Virus record (IMG/VR): IMGVR_UViG_3300043548_000322
Location: 1-23,691 of that record
Strand: one strand, 5' to 3'
DNA length: 23,691 nucleotides
Source of the DNA: a virus
In this document: piece after piece, positions 6,302-14,774 of the stretch
Layout of the letters: each line of letters begins with the position of its first letter
Position numbering within the stretch: the stretch's first letter is position 1
Made by a program: the position numbers and the translations under genes
Notes under the pieces: model-generated
Database searches by the model: none
Seen by the model: the letters and a program-made list of their open reading frames with translations, nothing else
What the model was told of the DNA's origin: nothing

Positions 6302-7864
6302 CTATCTCCGAACGGCTCGTTTGATTTGCGAGTAGCCAAGCTTGGCCCTTGTCTGAAACTTCAGGCGCCCCGATGGGTGAGCAGACGAGCCCGTCTCGAG
6401 CGCCGTCACCCAGGCCAGCACCACCGCGTCACCGCGGTCAGGGCTCCTGCCCAATCTCTTCCTGATCTCGTCCTTGCTCTCGATCTGGATCCCGCGCGGC
6501 GTCAGTTTCCACGTCGGCGAGGTCAGATCGGCCCGCAGCTGCGGATCGGGCGGCAAGGCCAACCCACTCCCATACGCCGGGTCCAAGGCTTCGCGGAACT
6601 TCCACCAGGTCTCGGCGCGCTTGTTCACGAAGCCCAGCTGCCGGTCCCTTGTCTTCGACGTCGAGCCACTCGAGCCCGTGACACCCCTGATCTTCACCGA
6701 CTGGTGCTTCAGGTGGTCGAACGCTGAGTTCCCCCACCCGCCCCCGGTGTCGATCACGATCTCGCAGGCATCCCTCATGTGCTGAACGATCAGGCCTGCG
6801 GTCGCGGGACCGTCCTTTGTGTCTAAACCTTTTCGACAGATCAGATGATCGAACCAAGTCCCATACCTGCACGACAACACTGTCTCGTCGGCGCCGCCTC
6901 CTGCGACGTCCACACCGATTGATGTCATGACCGCGCCTTCCGGCCTCGAGGCCGTCCAGCGCTTCATCGCCTCGTCGATCCAGGCCGATGGCACCACCTG
7001 ATAGTCGGCATCCTGCTGGCCCAGGTCGAACCGGCCCTCGCGCATCATGGTCCGGAGCGGCTCCGGCATGCTCTCGAGCACCGCCGCGTATCCGCTCTCC
7101 ATGAGCGCAGGGTTGTCCTCGAGCTTCGCAGCGATGAACGTCCGCGACCGCGGCGTCACCACGCGGCCGTCGACCTCGATCGGGTCGGGCCCGGGCAGCT
7201 CGACGTCCTCGCCCTTGATCGTCGTGAACCACCGCAACTCCCCCGGCCGCGCCGGGTTCGGATGCTTCGGGTCGAGCCAGGGCGCCCAATAGTCGACAAC
7301 CCACCGGCCCTCGGCCGTCGTGGGCGGGTTGCCGGTCACCACAACCCTGCAGCGCTCGCCCTTCACGTCGCTTCTGTTCCAGCCGATCAGGTAGCGGTAG
7401 ATCGACGGCGTGAAGTGCGTGATCTCGTCGAAGCCGATAAAGCTATGCGCCCGGCCCTGGTACTTCTCGCGATCCCACTCGTGCGGAACGGACCCGAACT
7501 CGAGGATCCTGCTGCCACTGTGGCGCCAGACCTTCTCCGTCGCGTTGTAGCCGTCGCGTGTTCCGAGCAGCTTCGCAGCCTCGTCCTCGAGACCTCGGAT
7601 CTGCGAGTATTCCCGGCGGAAGATGATGCTCTTCGTGTGCGCCTGTACGGCGAGCCCGACGAGCATGGCCGTCTTTCCGCCGCCTGCCGCGCCGCCGTAG
7701 AACATCTCGTCGGCCTTGCTCAGATACGCATCCGTCTGAGGCCCCGGCCAAGGGATGAACTTGAACTGCTTCGTCGCTGCGGCGATTTCCTTCGCCAGCT
7801 TCTTCTTGTCTTTCGCAGCCTCGACTTTCCTCAGCGCCGGTGCGAGGCGATCAGCGGGTTTCAA
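6302..7864 (-). CDS. terL: Terminase large subunit (ATPase and nuclease of DNA packaging)
   Basis: TerL packages concatemeric DNA into proheads, pairing an ATPase motor with an RNase H-fold nuclease. I start it at TTG 7864, giving 520 residues. That codon overlaps the stop of the upstream gene (TTGA, with GAGGA just before), whereas the 591-residue extension to 8077 would only re-read that gene in another frame. Seen: Walker A GGAAGGGKT at residues 57-65, Walker B FIGFDEITH at 142-150, the coupling motif VVVTGNPPTT at 175-183, and nuclease acidic residues in SIGVDVAGGGADET (D319) and EIVIDTGGGWGN (D371). The length is usual for the family. It is separated from TerS by three small genes and a serine recombinase on the other strand. 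No portal gene follows, which is unusual. Confidence 0.93.
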   Translation of the reverse strand: MKPADRLAPALRKVEAAKDKKKLAKEIAAATKQFKFIPWPGPQTDAYLSKADEMFYGGAAGGGKTAMLVGLAVQAHTKSIIFRREYSQIRGLEDEAAKLLGTRDGYNATEKVWRHSGSRILEFGSVPHEWDREKYQGRAHSFIGFDEITHFTPSIYRYLIGWNRSDVKGERCRVVVTGNPPTTAEGRWVVDYWAPWLDPKHPNPARPGELRWFTTIKGEDVELPGPDPIEVDGRVVTPRSRTFIAAKLEDNPALMESGYAAVLESMPEPLRTMMREGRFDLGQQDADYQVVPSAWIDEAMKRWTASRPEGAVMTSIGVDVAGGGADETVLSCRYGTWFDHLICRKGLDTKDGPATAGLIVQHMRDACEIVIDTGGGWGNSAFDHLKHQSVKIRGVTGSSGSTSKTRDRQLGFVNKRAETWWKFREALDPAYGSGLALPPDPQLRADLTSPTWKLTPRGIQIESKDEIRKRLGRSPDRGDAVVLAWVTALETGSSAHPSGRLKFQTRAKLGYSQIKRAVRR

Positions 7865-10202: not shown

Positions 10203-10724
10203 TTTTATCAGGCCATAGAATTTCGCCAGCCGATGGAGGGCCGTTTCAACGGCACCGACCGCCCGGCCGGCCGCTGTGTGCTTGCCCTTCAGCCCCCAAT
10301 ATTTCCGGCCGATCTGCTCACAGGGAATGTCGTTGATGACCAGCCAGTGTATCAGTTTGCGCCGCCCCATCTCGTCCAGAACGTCGTTAGCCTTGGCGAA
10401 ACGCCGGCTATGAAACACCCGCCGCTCCATCGCGTCGAGGTTCTGGCTACCGCCCAAACCGCTGATGTACTCGGACCAGCGCATCGTCGTGCCGTTACCT
10501 TGCTCGGTGCCGATATACCAATCCGCAAAATATTTCTGCCCGGCCTGATATTCCTCGGCGCTTATGCAGCGGTTGCGGTAGAGGTTCTCGAGCTGGCTCC
10601 ACACCCGGACGGCGCCAGACTTCCTCGTCGTGCCACCCGCCTGCGTCTCGGTCAGCTCGTCGAACCCCGGCGCCCTGCGCATGCGCTGCCTGGTCGGCTT
10701 GATCACGTCCTCAGTCATCAGCAT
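10200..10724 (-). CDS. 174-aa protein, candidate late-gene regulator (position-based)
   Basis: 174 residues, not firmly recognised. The N-terminus is basic (IKPTRQRMRRAPGFDELTETQ). The middle reads VWSQLENLYRNRCISAEEYQAGQKYF, like a helical hairpin seen in alphaproteobacterial DUF6456-type proteins. The C-terminus has an HTH-like run, DEMGRRKLIHWLVINDIPCEQIGRKYWG, then AAGRAVGAVETALHRLAKFYGLIK. This 'RAVGAVETALHRLA' ending resembles sigma-region-4-like or ArpU/Q-type late regulators in layout. It is the last early gene before a strong terminator and terS, where lambda-like phages put the antiterminator Q. ATG 10718 is an alternative start with AGGAG 7 nt upstream. The regulatory role is inference. 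Confidence 0.6.
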   Translation of the reverse strand: MLMTEDVIKPTRQRMRRAPGFDELTETQAGGTTRKSGAVRVWSQLENLYRNRCISAEEYQAGQKYFADWYIGTEQGNGTTMRWSEYISGLGGSQNLDAMERRVFHSRRFAKANDVLDEMGRRKLIHWLVINDIPCEQIGRKYWGLKGKHTAAGRAVGAVETALHRLAKFYGLIK

Positions 10725-10971
10725 GCTCCTGCTCCTCGAGGATCTCGTCGATCTCCTCCAGCCACTGAACCTCGCCCCTCGCAGCCGCCAGCTTGCGATC
10801 GAGCGCCGATCTCCCCGGCGGCGGATCGCCCAGCAGCCGGCCGGTCAGGTCTCTCGTGTCCGGGATCCTCGCCCGCCTCTCCCGGTCGGCCAGCGCCTTG
10901 GGGCTCGGCTGCAGTTCCGTCCCCCTGTGCATCGACCACTTGTAGATCGGACTGGTGAAGCGCTCGGTCAT
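10711..10971 (-). CDS. 86-aa protein next to the heptamer array
   Basis: 86 residues from the ATG at 10971, whose Shine-Dalgarno (AGGGAG, 7 nt upstream) lies within the first copy of the heptamer array. The longer frame to 11070 would be read through the repeats and has no Shine-Dalgarno. The sequence starts MTERFTSPIYKWSMHRGTEL, has a basic stretch ALADRERRARIPDTRDLTGR at 26-45, and ends in an acidic helix (VQWLEEIDEILEEQEHADD). No family is recognised. It overlaps the 174-aa gene by 14 bp. Its position directly beside the candidate origin and downstream of the primase-helicase suggests, without proof, a replication accessory or regulatory role. Confidence 0.65.
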   Translation of the reverse strand: MTERFTSPIYKWSMHRGTELQPSPKALADRERRARIPDTRDLTGRLLGDPPPGRSALDRKLAAARGEVQWLEEIDEILEEQEHADD

Positions 10972-10975
10972 CGTC

Positions 10976-11206
10976 CAACTCCCTTCCAGGGGAGTTGAAG
11001 GAGTTTTGGCCGGTAAGGCAGTAAAACACCCCGATCGGGGAGTTGGGGAGTTGTGTCTATAGACACACAACTCCCCTCAACTCCCCTCCGCAGACTTCGC
11101 AGGGAGTTCAAAGCGGGAGTTGAACTCCCTGTTTTTCTCAACTCCCTGCCCCGATTTGACAGGGAGTTGAAGGGAGTTGAACTCCCTAGCTTAACTCCCA
11201 ACTCCC
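10976..11206. repeat. Iteron-like array of 15 AACTCCC/GGGAGTT heptamers (candidate origin)
   Basis: Exact AACTCCC copies start at 10977, 11069, 11079, 11123, 11140, 11180, 11193 and 11200. Exact GGGAGTT copies start at 10990, 11038, 11046, 11102, 11115, 11162 and 11172, and AGGAGTT at 10999 is degenerate. They assemble into dyads: CAACTCCC-N6-GGGAGTTG (10976-10997), a 12-bp-arm inverted repeat around CTATAGAC (11045-11076), a 10-bp-arm repeat (11139-11169), and two GGGAGTTGAACTCCC palindromes (11115-11129 and 11172-11186). A CCCCGATCGGGG palindrome sits at 11029-11040. The array fills the gap after the primase-helicase gene, overlapping its stop codon. This looks like an initiator-binding origin; a cluster of RNA hairpins is the main alternative. 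Confidence 0.85.
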
Positions 11207-13242
11207 TAATCCCGCATGACGACATAGCGGTCCTCCTTCGTCTCCTTGTCCGGCGGCAGGAACGGGCTGTCGTCACCCTTCCGCATGGCTGCGAGCTTCG
11301 CCCTGACGTTCCCGCGACGCACCTTGACGGTTCCCGCATCGGGCCGCCGATCAGCGGCACGGATCACCAGCTCGCTCTTCAACACGTCGCCGCCAACGGC
11401 TAGCTCCTGGTAGACATCAAGGATTGCCTCGCCCCAGACACCCCACGACTTCGCCGCAGCCTTGCGCCGCCCGCCCCTCACCCCTGCCTCGACCTGCACC
11501 TCGCTCTCGGCGATGACGCAGCTCTCGATCACCTCACCGTCGTCATCCATGCCGATGGGCACGTTCTGGAGGGTGAAGCCCCAGCTCGCGCTGTCCTCGC
11601 CGTCCTTCTGCTTCGTTGTGTGAACTGCCCGGGCAGCGCCGTCGCGCGTGACCTCGATCTCAAAATCAGCCGCGGCCTTGATGCCGGACCAGCCGCGAGC
11701 CCCCCGGCTCGCGTCCTTGCCGGCGTGATGCACCAGGATGACCACGGCACCCGCCTGGCGCCCCACGGCGCGGATGTTGCTGATGGCCTGGCCCATGTCC
11801 TCGGCGCTGTTCTCGTTCGCGCCGGGCGTCGTCTGCGCGAAGGTATCGACGACGATCACCTCGGCACCGGCCTTCAGGATCGCCTGGCAGAGCGCCTTGA
11901 CCTGGGCCTTGTCGAGCAGGTTCGGGGCGGCGTGAACGACGCCAAAGGGCACCTGCGACAGGTCGACGTTGTTGTGCTGGGCATATGCCTCGAGCCGGTT
12001 GCGGAAGCCGCCACCGCCCTCGGCCACGATGTAGACCACCCTGCCCTGGCGCACCTTGAGACCGCGCCAAGAGGTGCCGCGGGCGATCGCCATGGCAAGA
12101 TCGATCATCACGAAGGACTTGCCGGCGCCGCTCTCGCCGTAGATCACGCCGAGGTCTGCCTTGGGGATCAGGCCCTTGATGATCCAACCCGGACGGGGGC
12201 GTTCGAGGAACATGAAGGCGGGGATGACCTCGAAACGGGCGGCTGCCGGCGCATCGATGGTCTCGCCTGTTCCATCGGCCGTCTCGGCATCCGGATCGGG
12301 GCCGAGATCCTCGAAATCGTTCGCGACGTCGTCCTGGTAATTGATCGCGGCCAGGTAATCCTGCCGCGTGCGGTGGTCGCAGTGGGAGTGCAGGCACCGG
12401 AAATGGCCCTGCCCGTGCCCGTTGGTGCCCGCGATGAGCCACATCGTCGAGCTGTCGCCGGCGTCACCTCCTGAGTGCTCGTGCTCCCACGGGCACTCGA
12501 TCAGGAGACCGCCCCGCCGGTCCTCGCCCAGCACCAGGCCGTGGTCGTACAGGAACGTGGCGACGGGGTCGTCGACGTCGAGGTGAAGCCCGCGGCGCCG
12601 GTCTGAGGCCTTGAACTCCTTCGGCTCCTCGATCGCGAACTGCACCTCGAGGCTGCCCCACAGATCCTCGAACTGTTGGGCAGTGATTTCCGGAAATGTT
12701 TCCGGCAATCCGTTGACCCATTCGTAGCGGGCGCCGGAGGTGTGCGTGCCGACAGCGATGAATTGCTGGCCGTTGCCGAGGAACTCGATCATCCCGCCCT
12801 CGACCTTCATCACCCGCTTCGGGAACTCGCCGGCGAGGCGGAACGCGAGGAGGCACTTGCCGGTGTTGGGCCGCCTGCGGATCGGGAGATCGATCCCGAG
12901 CTCCTGCTTCGCTGCCTTGACGATCGCAGCCGCGACGGCCTCGTTCGCGACGTCGATGTCGAGGGCGCGCACCAGGCGCGTCTGGATGCAGATCCCGTAG
13001 TCGGGCTCCGACGCCCAGCGCTTGATCTCCGCGTCGGAGGCGCGGTGGTCGGTCCACCGGGAGATGCCCACGACCATCTTGCCGCCGTTGTACTGCGACG
13101 GCGTCTTGCCCAGCTGCTTCATGGACGACTTCGGGCTGATGGTCGCGCCGGGGCGCGAGACCACCGGCAAGAGATCCGAGCCGAGGCCCAGCTGGTCGAG
13201 GTGCCGCCAGTCATCGGGCCGGGCGCCGTAGTGAGTGCTCAT
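11206..13242 (-). CDS. Primase-polymerase/RepA-like helicase fusion (phage replication protein)
   Basis: 678 residues in three parts. The N-terminal archaeo-eukaryotic-type primase/polymerase domain (about 40-200) has the metal-binding RALDIDV (D95, D97), GKCLLAFR near 128-135, and GGMIEFLGNGQQFIAVGTH at 149-167, as in Prim-Pol proteins. A Cys/His segment at 250-290 (CPWEHEHS, then FRCLHSHCDHRT) looks zinc-binding. The C-terminal RecA-fold ATPase (about 340-560) has Walker A GESGAGKS (369-376), Walker B EVIVVDTFAQ (461-470) and VVILVHHAGKDASRGARG, matching RepA/RadA-like hexameric helicases ('AAA_25' type). Together these would prime and unwind phage DNA. No clear Shine-Dalgarno precedes the ATG at 13242. 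The gene ends inside the heptamer array, a likely binding site for it or a partner. Confidence 0.9.
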   Translation of the reverse strand: MSTHYGARPDDWRHLDQLGLGSDLLPVVSRPGATISPKSSMKQLGKTPSQYNGGKMVVGISRWTDHRASDAEIKRWASEPDYGICIQTRLVRALDIDVANEAVAAAIVKAAKQELGIDLPIRRRPNTGKCLLAFRLAGEFPKRVMKVEGGMIEFLGNGQQFIAVGTHTSGARYEWVNGLPETFPEITAQQFEDLWGSLEVQFAIEEPKEFKASDRRRGLHLDVDDPVATFLYDHGLVLGEDRRGGLLIECPWEHEHSGGDAGDSSTMWLIAGTNGHGQGHFRCLHSHCDHRTRQDYLAAINYQDDVANDFEDLGPDPDAETADGTGETIDAPAAARFEVIPAFMFLERPRPGWIIKGLIPKADLGVIYGESGAGKSFVMIDLAMAIARGTSWRGLKVRQGRVVYIVAEGGGGFRNRLEAYAQHNNVDLSQVPFGVVHAAPNLLDKAQVKALCQAILKAGAEVIVVDTFAQTTPGANENSAEDMGQAISNIRAVGRQAGAVVILVHHAGKDASRGARGWSGIKAAADFEIEVTRDGAARAVHTTKQKDGEDSASWGFTLQNVPIGMDDDGEVIESCVIAESEVQVEAGVRGGRRKAAAKSWGVWGEAILDVYQELAVGGDVLKSELVIRAADRRPDAGTVKVRRGNVRAKLAAMRKGDDSPFLPPDKETKEDRYVVMRD

Positions 13243-13262: not shown

Positions 13263-13523
13263 TTAGACCAGGTCGGAAGCGTCGAGGTCGCCCAGTGCGT
13301 GGAGGTAGGTGTCGACAAGCGAGCGCTGCTCGCGCATCTGCTCCGCGTCCATCTTGCGAAGCGCGATCACCTTGCGCAGGATCTTGGTGTCGAAGCCGGT
13401 GGCCTTGGCCTCGGAGTAGACGTTCTTGATGTCATCGGAGATGGCGCGCTTCTCGTCCTCGAGGATCTCGATACGCTCGACGATGGCCTTAAGCTCGGCC
13501 GCGGTGTTGGATCCGATGGTCAT
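13263..13523 (-). CDS. GapR/DUF2312 family nucleoid-associated protein
   Basis: 86 residues from the ATG at 13523, with AGGAGG a few nt upstream. The longer frame to 14003 only re-reads the upstream genes. The sequence [52 protein letters not shown], then [15 protein letters not shown] is the DUF2312/GapR signature. In Caulobacter GapR is a coiled-coil protein that encircles AT-rich, overtwisted DNA and aids replication and topoisomerase action. Family length is about 85-90 aa, so this copy is complete. It sits 20 bp before the primase-helicase and overlaps the Myb-like gene by ATGA, pointing to a replication-linked role for the phage copy. This gene is the best single pointer to an alphaproteobacterial host. 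Confidence 0.9.
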
Positions 13524-13864
13524 TCGTCCTCCTGTGGGTTTGCCTGGTCGCGCAAAAGCTTCGCGCGCTTGCGCACGCTGTCCTCGGACCTGTTCAGCAG
13601 ACGGCAGATGGCCATCAGCGACATGCCGTTCTGCCGGCGCTCGAGGAGCGCCTGGTCCTCCCCCGGGGTCCAGTGCCGGTAGTTGGGTTTCCGCTGGCCC
13701 TTGCAGCTGCCGGACTTCGGGCCTGAGTGTTTCGGGATGTGATCGCGATCGACGAGCTCTGTAATCACCCGGCCGTCGATCGTGATCTTTGTGATCGTGC
13801 CGTCGAGCGTGCGGCGCATCAGCTCCTCGATGAGCTGGCCTTCGGTCATCATCTGGGTTGTCAT
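13520..13864 (-). CDS. Myb/SANT-like HTH DNA-binding protein
   Basis: 114 residues. The N-terminal half ([37 protein letters not shown]) is not recognised. Residues 64-108 are a Myb/SANT- or GcrA-like helix-turn-helix: [41 protein letters not shown]. The tryptophan, acidic ED..LL pair and [12 protein letters not shown] recognition helix match the general W(T/S)xxED..LL..R..G.S...IA..L.RS..AVR.R pattern. It overlaps its neighbours at both ends by ATGA (13861-13864 and 13520-13523), so it is translationally coupled within the early left operon. It probably regulates phage transcription or helps initiate replication; the target is unknown. Confidence 0.75.
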
Positions 13865-14073
13865 ACATCGGCCCCGAAGATGTCGGGCCGTAGTTCAGCT
13901 GTGCGGATCTTGCCCTTCGTTGCCTTGTGTATGGCGATAGCCATCTTCGGCGACACCTGCCCCCTTTGGACGGCGTGCCAGACGGCGTGCTGGCTGTAGC
14001 CAATGGCTGCCGCCAGCCTGCTCATATTTCCGAAATGGGCTATGGCTTGGTGTAGGTATTCGCTTTGTTCCAT
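13861..14073 (-). CDS. YdaS/Cro-like HTH regulator
   Basis: 70 residues from the ATG at 14073. The HTH reads [40 protein letters not shown], followed by [19 protein letters not shown]. This is the arrangement of YdaS-type Cro/antitoxin-like regulators ('AIAIEKATGGKVT...ELRPDIF'). Such proteins act as Cro, opposing the CI-like repressor encoded divergently. The alternative GTG at 14094 abuts GGAA and would add MCFVPQI, which I think is wrong. No Shine-Dalgarno precedes 14073, and the predicted leftward start of transcription falls at about 14076-14081. The message may therefore be leaderless or nearly so. First gene of the left operon. Confidence 0.85.
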
Positions 14074-14082
14074 GATTTGCGG

Positions 14083-14126
14083 AACAAAACACACTTCCGT
14101 TTATTGGTCAACACGGAAAATGTTTC
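14083..14126 (-). promoter_or_regulatory. Leftward early promoter with overlapping repressor operator
   Basis: On the minus strand TTGACC (14111-14106) is a -35 and TTTGTT (14088-14083) a -10, with 17 bp between. The -35 lies inside the inverted repeat TTCCGT-N12-ACGGAA (14095-14118), so a bound dimer would block polymerase. The block AAACATTTTCCGTGTTGAC is repeated almost exactly, facing the other way, at 14773-14791. It drives the YdaS-like gene and the rest of the left operon. Confidence 0.7.
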
Positions 14127-14198: not shown

Positions 14199-14774
14199 AT
14201 GAGTATTGGGAAGCTGATCAAAGAGACCCGCGAAGCGGCCGACATCACACAGAAGCAGCTTGCTGAAATGGCTGGCTGCAAACAGGCTGATGTTCACAGA
14301 ATTGAGAGTGGCCAGGTCAGCAACTCGAAATATCTTGCGCCTATACTAAAAGTTTTGCACTTATCTGAAGACACACATTCGGTGGTGCCGCTTGTGGGGT
14401 ATATCGGAGCAGGTGCAGAAGTGCTGGCGATTGACGATCATGCCAAAGGCGATGGTTTCGAGATGATCCCGGCCCCTCCGGGGATGCTGAACGGTATCGC
14501 TCTGATTGTACGCGGCACATCCATGACGCCAAAGTACGACGACGGCGAGGTCATCTTCATCGAAAAGACGATTTACGCAATCGACAGCATGATTGGCGAC
14601 AATTGCTACATCCAGCTGCCTGACGGCCGGGCCTATCTGAAGAAGCTGCAGTACGGTTCCCGACCAGGGCTTTACACCCTTGTTTCCTACAACGCGCCCC
14701 CTATCATCGACGTACCGATCGAGCGGGCTTACCCAATCGCATACACGAAGCCGCGTTATCGAAATCTGAAATAA
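14199..14774 (+). CDS. CI-like phage repressor, XRE HTH plus S24/LexA-like domain
   Basis: 191 residues. Residues 1-55 are an XRE helix-turn-helix: IGKLIKETREAADITQKQLAEMAG, CKQADVHRIESGQ. The C-terminal half is an S24 peptidase/LexA-like domain. VGYIGAGAEV (66-75) contains the probable self-cleavage site A71-G72, RGTSMTPKYDDGEVI holds the catalytic Ser108, and GRAYLKKL holds the Lys148/149 partner. Such repressors keep the prophage silent and self-cleave when RecA is activated by DNA damage, so this phage is probably SOS-inducible. AAGGA lies about 10 nt before the ATG. It is transcribed divergently from the Cro-like gene and flanked on both sides by matching operators. Base composition is somewhat lower in GC than the genes around it, as is frequent for immunity genes. 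Confidence 0.92.
   Translation: MSIGKLIKETREAADITQKQLAEMAGCKQADVHRIESGQVSNSKYLAPILKVLHLSEDTHSVVPLVGYIGAGAEVLAIDDHAKGDGFEMIPAPPGMLNGIALIVRGTSMTPKYDDGEVIFIEKTIYAIDSMIGDNCYIQLPDGRAYLKKLQYGSRPGLYTLVSYNAPPIIDVPIERAYPIAYTKPRYRNLK

Follow-up and report, generated by a model that had tools for sequence, protein, structure and literature searches.

P4 alpha unites primase and helicase in one protein, whose C-terminal winged-helix domain binds the origin; its iterons are short and lie in two orientations. At RSF1010 oriV, RepA, RepB' and RepC are three separate proteins, and the iterons are longer direct repeats. In the SaPI/PICI satellite islands, the gene for the initiator helicase is followed immediately by an iteron origin, which the C terminus of Rep reads; the iteron sequences differ from element to element (PMC7581432, PMC6092414). 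An essential stem-loop region without iterons lies just 3' of the Prim-Pol/helicase/winged-helix gene of pRN1 (PMC4234260). For primases of mobile elements, a survey predicted possible origin recognition by a C-terminal winged helix (PMC5862659). The literature that we covered, largely open-access journal papers, contained no iteron origins for phage initiators of the Prim-Pol/RepA type and no residue-base rule.

The window analyzed here is an IMG/VR virus record of 23.7 kb, possibly incomplete, in which a dense array of the heptamer AACTCCC/GGGAGTT adjoins the end of a primase-helicase gene (Table 1). Fifteen exact sites make up the array, eight reading AACTCCC and seven GGGAGTT on the + strand, as the original prediction had counted at this place; one further copy lies elsewhere in the window, at 7236. 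When the full 23.7 kb was shuffled with dinucleotides preserved, the mean was 2.07 copies and 16 were never reached. This corresponds to ~0.02 per 231 bp, in agreement with the chance expectation of 0.03 proposed earlier. The final base of the array, 11206, is also the last base of the primase-helicase stop codon (TAG, − strand, 11208-11206), so that the array does meet the stop codon of the Prim-Pol/RepA-like gene, as had been claimed.

The dyads described in the original prediction are real, with minor corrections. The 12-bp perfect arms (11045-11056/11065-11076) and both copies of the 15-bp palindrome GGGAGTTGAACTCCC (11115-11129 and 11172-11186) stand as described; the pair given as 10 bp in fact has 11-bp arms (11138-11148/11160-11170), and a further perfect 12-bp pair (11100-11111/11120-11131) had been missed. 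The spacing, previously called irregular, is less so than it appears: 12 of the 15 sites group as three four-site units with the pattern <- <- -> ->. The unit at 11038-11085 is predicted to fold as a hairpin of 19 bp with a 2-nt bulge (−18.5 kcal/mol as DNA, z −7.0), and in it the opposed heptamer blocks lie on either side of a CTATAG palindrome. The window array showed no long AT-rich tract, and GC skew gave no useful minimum in the window or in the phages CRP-811 and YeP5.

Table 1. Features of the heptamer array and of the genes beside it in the window.
Feature	Position	Strand	Basis
Heptamer (iteron) array, 15 sites, candidate replication origin	10977..11206	.	Site count; position conserved in relatives
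Four-site unit (<- <- -> ->) around central palindrome, one long hairpin	11038..11085	.	DNA fold
Palindrome TGTGTCTATAGACACA at the center (CTWTAG class), candidate site of opening or priming	11052..11067	.	Palindrome enrichment in arrays
Four-site unit containing 15-bp palindrome 11115-11129	11102..11146	.	Repeat and dyad scans
Four-site unit containing 15-bp palindrome 11172-11186	11162..11199	.	Repeat and dyad scans
Prim-Pol/RepA-like helicase/C-terminal winged-helix protein, 678 aa, proposed initiator	11206..13242	-	Pfam Prim-Pol, AAA_25
Prim-Pol domain, residues 55-178	12709..13080	-	Pfam
RepA-like hexameric helicase domain, residues 347-511	11710..12204	-	Pfam; RSF1010 RepA fold
C-terminal winged-helix-like domain, residues 595-678	11209..11460	-	AlphaFold; weak, mostly winged-helix matches
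Predicted recognition helix VKVRRGNVRAKLAAMR, residues 639-654; Asn645 (11308-11310), specificity position	11281..11328	-	
86-aa ORF downstream of array, no known family	10711..10971	-	ORF list; family searches

The 678-aa product is annotated by PHROG as a DNA primase/helicase. Its helicase part resembles RSF1010 RepA: 1nlf and 1g8y are two of the three best Foldseek hits, and phmmer gives an E value of 5e-8; in both fold and sequence it is a hexameric helicase of the RSF1010 RepA type. The AlphaFold model of the C terminus has three helices and a short hairpin (pLDDT 88.5), and it matches solved structures weakly in Foldseek (E 0.4), mostly at winged-helix domains. The predicted specificity position, Asn645 in the window protein, sits in the third helix of this domain.

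Downstream of the array, the 86-aa ORF is followed by a 174-aa protein with a match to PHROG 16492 and then by the terminase genes; both terminase subunits and tail genes are present in the window. On the − strand, the heptamer at 10977-10983 supplies GGGAG at Shine–Dalgarno distance from the ATG of the 86-aa ORF, and this iteron may double as its ribosome-binding site. The opposite strand encodes a PDDEXK/DUF2800 exonuclease, an Enc34-type ssDNA-binding protein, a family A DNA polymerase, an SNF2-type helicase and a dNMP kinase. With these genes, the phage supplies a large part of its replication machinery itself. A gene at 13263-14003 (− strand), immediately upstream of that for the primase-helicase, encodes a 246-aa phage protein ending in a GapR-like DNA-binding domain. 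Divergent repressor genes, Cro/YdaS-like (13861-14094, − strand) and CI/S24-like (14199-14774, + strand), form a temperate-phage switch. The same phage is present in another record (L008), identical from upstream through the array. When L008 is compared with the window over 8.7-19.2 kb, identity falls to 60-70% from ~0.6 kb past the primase stop onward, marking an abrupt boundary after the replication module and its array.

Related primase-helicases were gathered from IMG/VR and GTDB genomes, giving 137 relatives nonredundant at 85% identity. The 270 bp after each stop codon were searched with a de novo dense-heptamer scan for at least five copies of one mixed-orientation heptamer. Such arrays were present after the stop in 55 of 137 relatives; the same criterion picked out 1 of 3977 control windows taken from these loci and none of 1370 dinucleotide shuffles. 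Lineages carry their own heptamers, among them TGACCCC (L009), TGGTGCA (L011), TGTCCCG (L019-L021), TTAATAC (L084), TGAAGGGT (L041) and many others. The position of the array is thus conserved across relatives, whereas the heptamer sequence is not. Arrays have a median of eight sites, with orientations balanced overall; the commonest distance between direct neighbors is 7-11 bp, and same-orientation neighbors occur more often than in shuffles (279 vs 231, sd 10). Palindromes of the CTWTAG type occur in 23 of 66 arrays, compared with 23 of 3639 control windows.

Isolated phages show the same arrangement. The Roseobacter phages CRP-811 and CRP-823 carry ten copies of ACTACAAA at the same place together with the palindrome CCCTTTAGGG, Yersinia phage YeP5 has AGACAACC seven times, Escherichia phage vB_EcoM-683R1 has AGGTGAC nine times, and Caulobacter phage Jess A has a weak array of five GGTTAC copies. 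In YeP5, vB_EcoM-683R1 and Jess A, similarity to the window protein covers its N-terminal half, with Prim-Pol. At the stop codon, about one relative in two is without a clear array, among them those with RRQR/RRQN-type helices (L010, L013, L015 and L348, which is Caulobacter phage GB2A); the scan of the whole GB2A genome found no array either. A loose TGCA-pair pattern search in array-less records was too unspecific to interpret. In three relatives (L160, L121, L151), the array precedes the helicase stop, so that the C terminus is apparently extended by translated repeats. Elsewhere in IMG/VR, AACTCCC arrays occur only in the sibling record (L008/L357); the other 18 matches have 3-4 copies each, without such a helicase, and BLASTN of the array against phage genomes returned nothing useful. 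Conservation of the heptamers in relatives had been proposed as a check. AACTCCC itself is absent from close relatives, but many carry an array of another heptamer at this place, one that changes with the recognition helix of the primase-helicase, and the candidate-origin reading thus withstands a stricter test than the proposed one.

We examined which protein reads the heptamers through covariation. Motif similarity climbed with C-terminal identity, and 94% of pairs at 70% identity or above share a motif. Two relatives (L075 and L073) with helicase cores 97% identical and C termini 52% identical have different motifs. A partial Mantel test gave a partial r of 0.15 each for the C terminus and the core, with no separation of the two. 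The C-terminal code adjoins the array, and recombination could thus move the two jointly; a finer test was therefore made. In relatives with the recognition helix RD[TS]R[KR]Q-X, where X is the specificity residue, we first saw that His at X goes with TGCACC and other residues with TGCAAC. Across 75 loci picked for a clear array of either kind, His accompanied TGCACC in 22 of 22 cases, and Arg, Lys, Val, Leu or Met accompanied TGCAAC in 53 of 53 (split 22/0/0/53). The specificity column reached an MCC of 1.0, compared with 0.51 for the best of the other 326 columns; this single-column test, unlike the partial Mantel test, did separate the C terminus from the core. Array-bearing loci fetched after the rule had been set down all agreed with it (13/13 with His and 19/19 with Arg/Lys, 32/32 in all).

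On a tree of helicase cores, 12 residue changes and 12 motif changes always fall together with no mismatch, only five of the 12 joint changes being independent pairs on well-supported branches. In two further pairs (L186/L187 and L101/L331), the genes are similar up to the C terminus and the arrays are wholly different. One member of the original set (L087) combines His with TGCACT, keeping the C at the same base. Linkage alone would not explain one perfect column among its neighbors, and the covariation identifies the C-terminal winged-helix-like domain of the primase-helicase as the predicted reader of the array. This residue-base rule comes from the TGCA[A/C]C group; the window, with Asn645 and AACTCCC, is without a close relative of changed heptamer. 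Among the binders originally suggested, the Prim-Pol protein is favored by the covariation of heptamer and recognition helix, and neither the 86-aa protein nor GapR gained any support.

Judged from sequence comparison, the array is almost certainly a docking site of the phage's own primase-helicase and most likely also the point at which replication starts. It is highly probable that the array is the cognate site of the Prim-Pol/RepA-like helicase and forms with its gene a rep-ori replication module; we count the phage's own PolA, ssDNA-binding protein and nuclease as support for this module, together with the spacing of direct neighbors, the enriched palindromes, the central hairpin and the arrays of isolated phages. 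The relatives that have no clear array, the uninformative GC skew and the weak winged-helix matches count against it. The proposal of a candidate origin gains support from varied arrays at the same place that track the recognition helix. Comparison provides the array position, the helix-heptamer covariation and the fold class, and we infer two-ring loading, palindrome melting and origin firing. Each protomer would put the third helix of its C-terminal winged-helix-like domain on one heptamer, and directly neighboring heptamers, about one helical turn apart, could be filled side by side. Opposed blocks could seat two helicase rings facing the central CTATAG palindrome, which would open or extrude as a hairpin. 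RepA-type rings would then load at the opened palindrome, the attached Prim-Pol domain would synthesize primers, and the phage PolA would continue.

An operator array with no origin function, through which the primase-helicase or a different regulator would control downstream genes by occupying the heptamers, would fit the location directly before the same-strand 86-aa ORF, the first heptamer that can serve as its ribosome-binding site and the terminase small subunit gene often found nearby. However, the array accompanies the primase-helicase gene even where the sequence downstream differs (47 clusters in 66 loci, crude numbers because the clustering includes some antisense ORFs), the reader domain belongs to a replicative helicase, and 15 sites around a hairpin are far above the usual operator. 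We regard a pure operator as unlikely; an extra regulatory role might exist beside origin function. The terminase small subunit gene, ~0.9 kb from the array in the window, also raises the reading of the heptamers as a packaging (pac) site for its product. This is extremely unlikely, as heptamer identity tracks a primase-helicase residue and the terminase genes of CRP-811, a 32.6-kb circular genome, lie ~5 kb from the array across the record ends.

A strong hairpin 3' of the primase-helicase gene might also be a transcription terminator or attenuator, but no T-tract follows it, Rfam returned no match, and such an element needs no 8-15 lineage-specific sites in two orientations that covary with a protein; we consider it very unlikely. 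Short repeats are able to spread, and a functionless array produced by chance or selfish expansion has next to no probability: unrelated heptamers at the same position in very diverse phages and prophages, with perfect covariation, already contradict it. A classical iteron plasmid origin, with long direct repeats in one orientation and a nonhelicase Rep, was rejected; the sites here are 7 bp long and in two orientations, and their predicted reader is part of a helicase.

The rep-ori reading provides candidate replication origins and a reader protein for a wide set of phages and prophages for which we found no reported origins, and sharpens the published guess of a winged-helix origin reader into specific predictions. 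Loci that differ naturally by His/Arg but have near-identical helicase cores already amount to specificity swaps. We lean slightly toward the broader proposition that fused Prim-Pol/helicase initiators in a large set of previously unlinked phage and prophage replicons read lineage-specific heptamers with their C-terminal recognition helix by simple residue-base rules, making a phage's origin and its replication compatibility with other phages predictable from the protein alone. Should the rule extend, protein sequence could be used to predict origin sequence and the compatibility of replicons, and to choose orthogonal replicons derived from phages.

Compared with known systems, the locus combines features otherwise found apart. 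With P4 alpha (comparison given in PMC4234260), it shares a fused primase-helicase, a C-terminal winged helix and two-orientation iterons; the primase and helicase folds differ, and P4 needs a second distant site (crr), in the possibly incomplete 23.7-kb record, one stray heptamer but no such site was seen. Like pRN1 and the proposed BIP-1, it pairs a Prim-Pol/helicase/winged-helix protein with a stem-loop region just 3' of the gene, but the helicase of pRN1 belongs to SF3 and iterons are absent there; a stem-loop origin of the pRN1 type was rejected, the window having a hairpin but also 15 iterons. RSF1010 oriV has the same helicase fold, plus a primase and iteron binding, distributed over three separate proteins with longer direct-repeat iterons instead of one fused protein. 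The survey of PrimQH and related archaeo-eukaryotic primases is without iterons and names no origin for them. The window and its relatives resemble SaPI/PICI in having an iteron array immediately 3' of the gene for the initiator helicase and in C-terminal recognition of that array, here indicated by covariation. The mixed-orientation arrangement, suggested to be new, is so only in part, short iterons 3' of an initiator gene being known from PICIs (PMC6092414, PMC7581432). In contrast to the satellite islands, which have no virion and packaging genes of their own, the window comes from a full phage with its own polymerase, terminase and tail genes, and its helicase is of the RSF1010 RepA type fused to Prim-Pol. 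SaPI/PICI origins have two iteron sets around an AT-rich region; the arrangement here seems to differ, with ~7-bp sites in two orientations around a CTWTAG palindrome that appear to be read by a residue-base rule.
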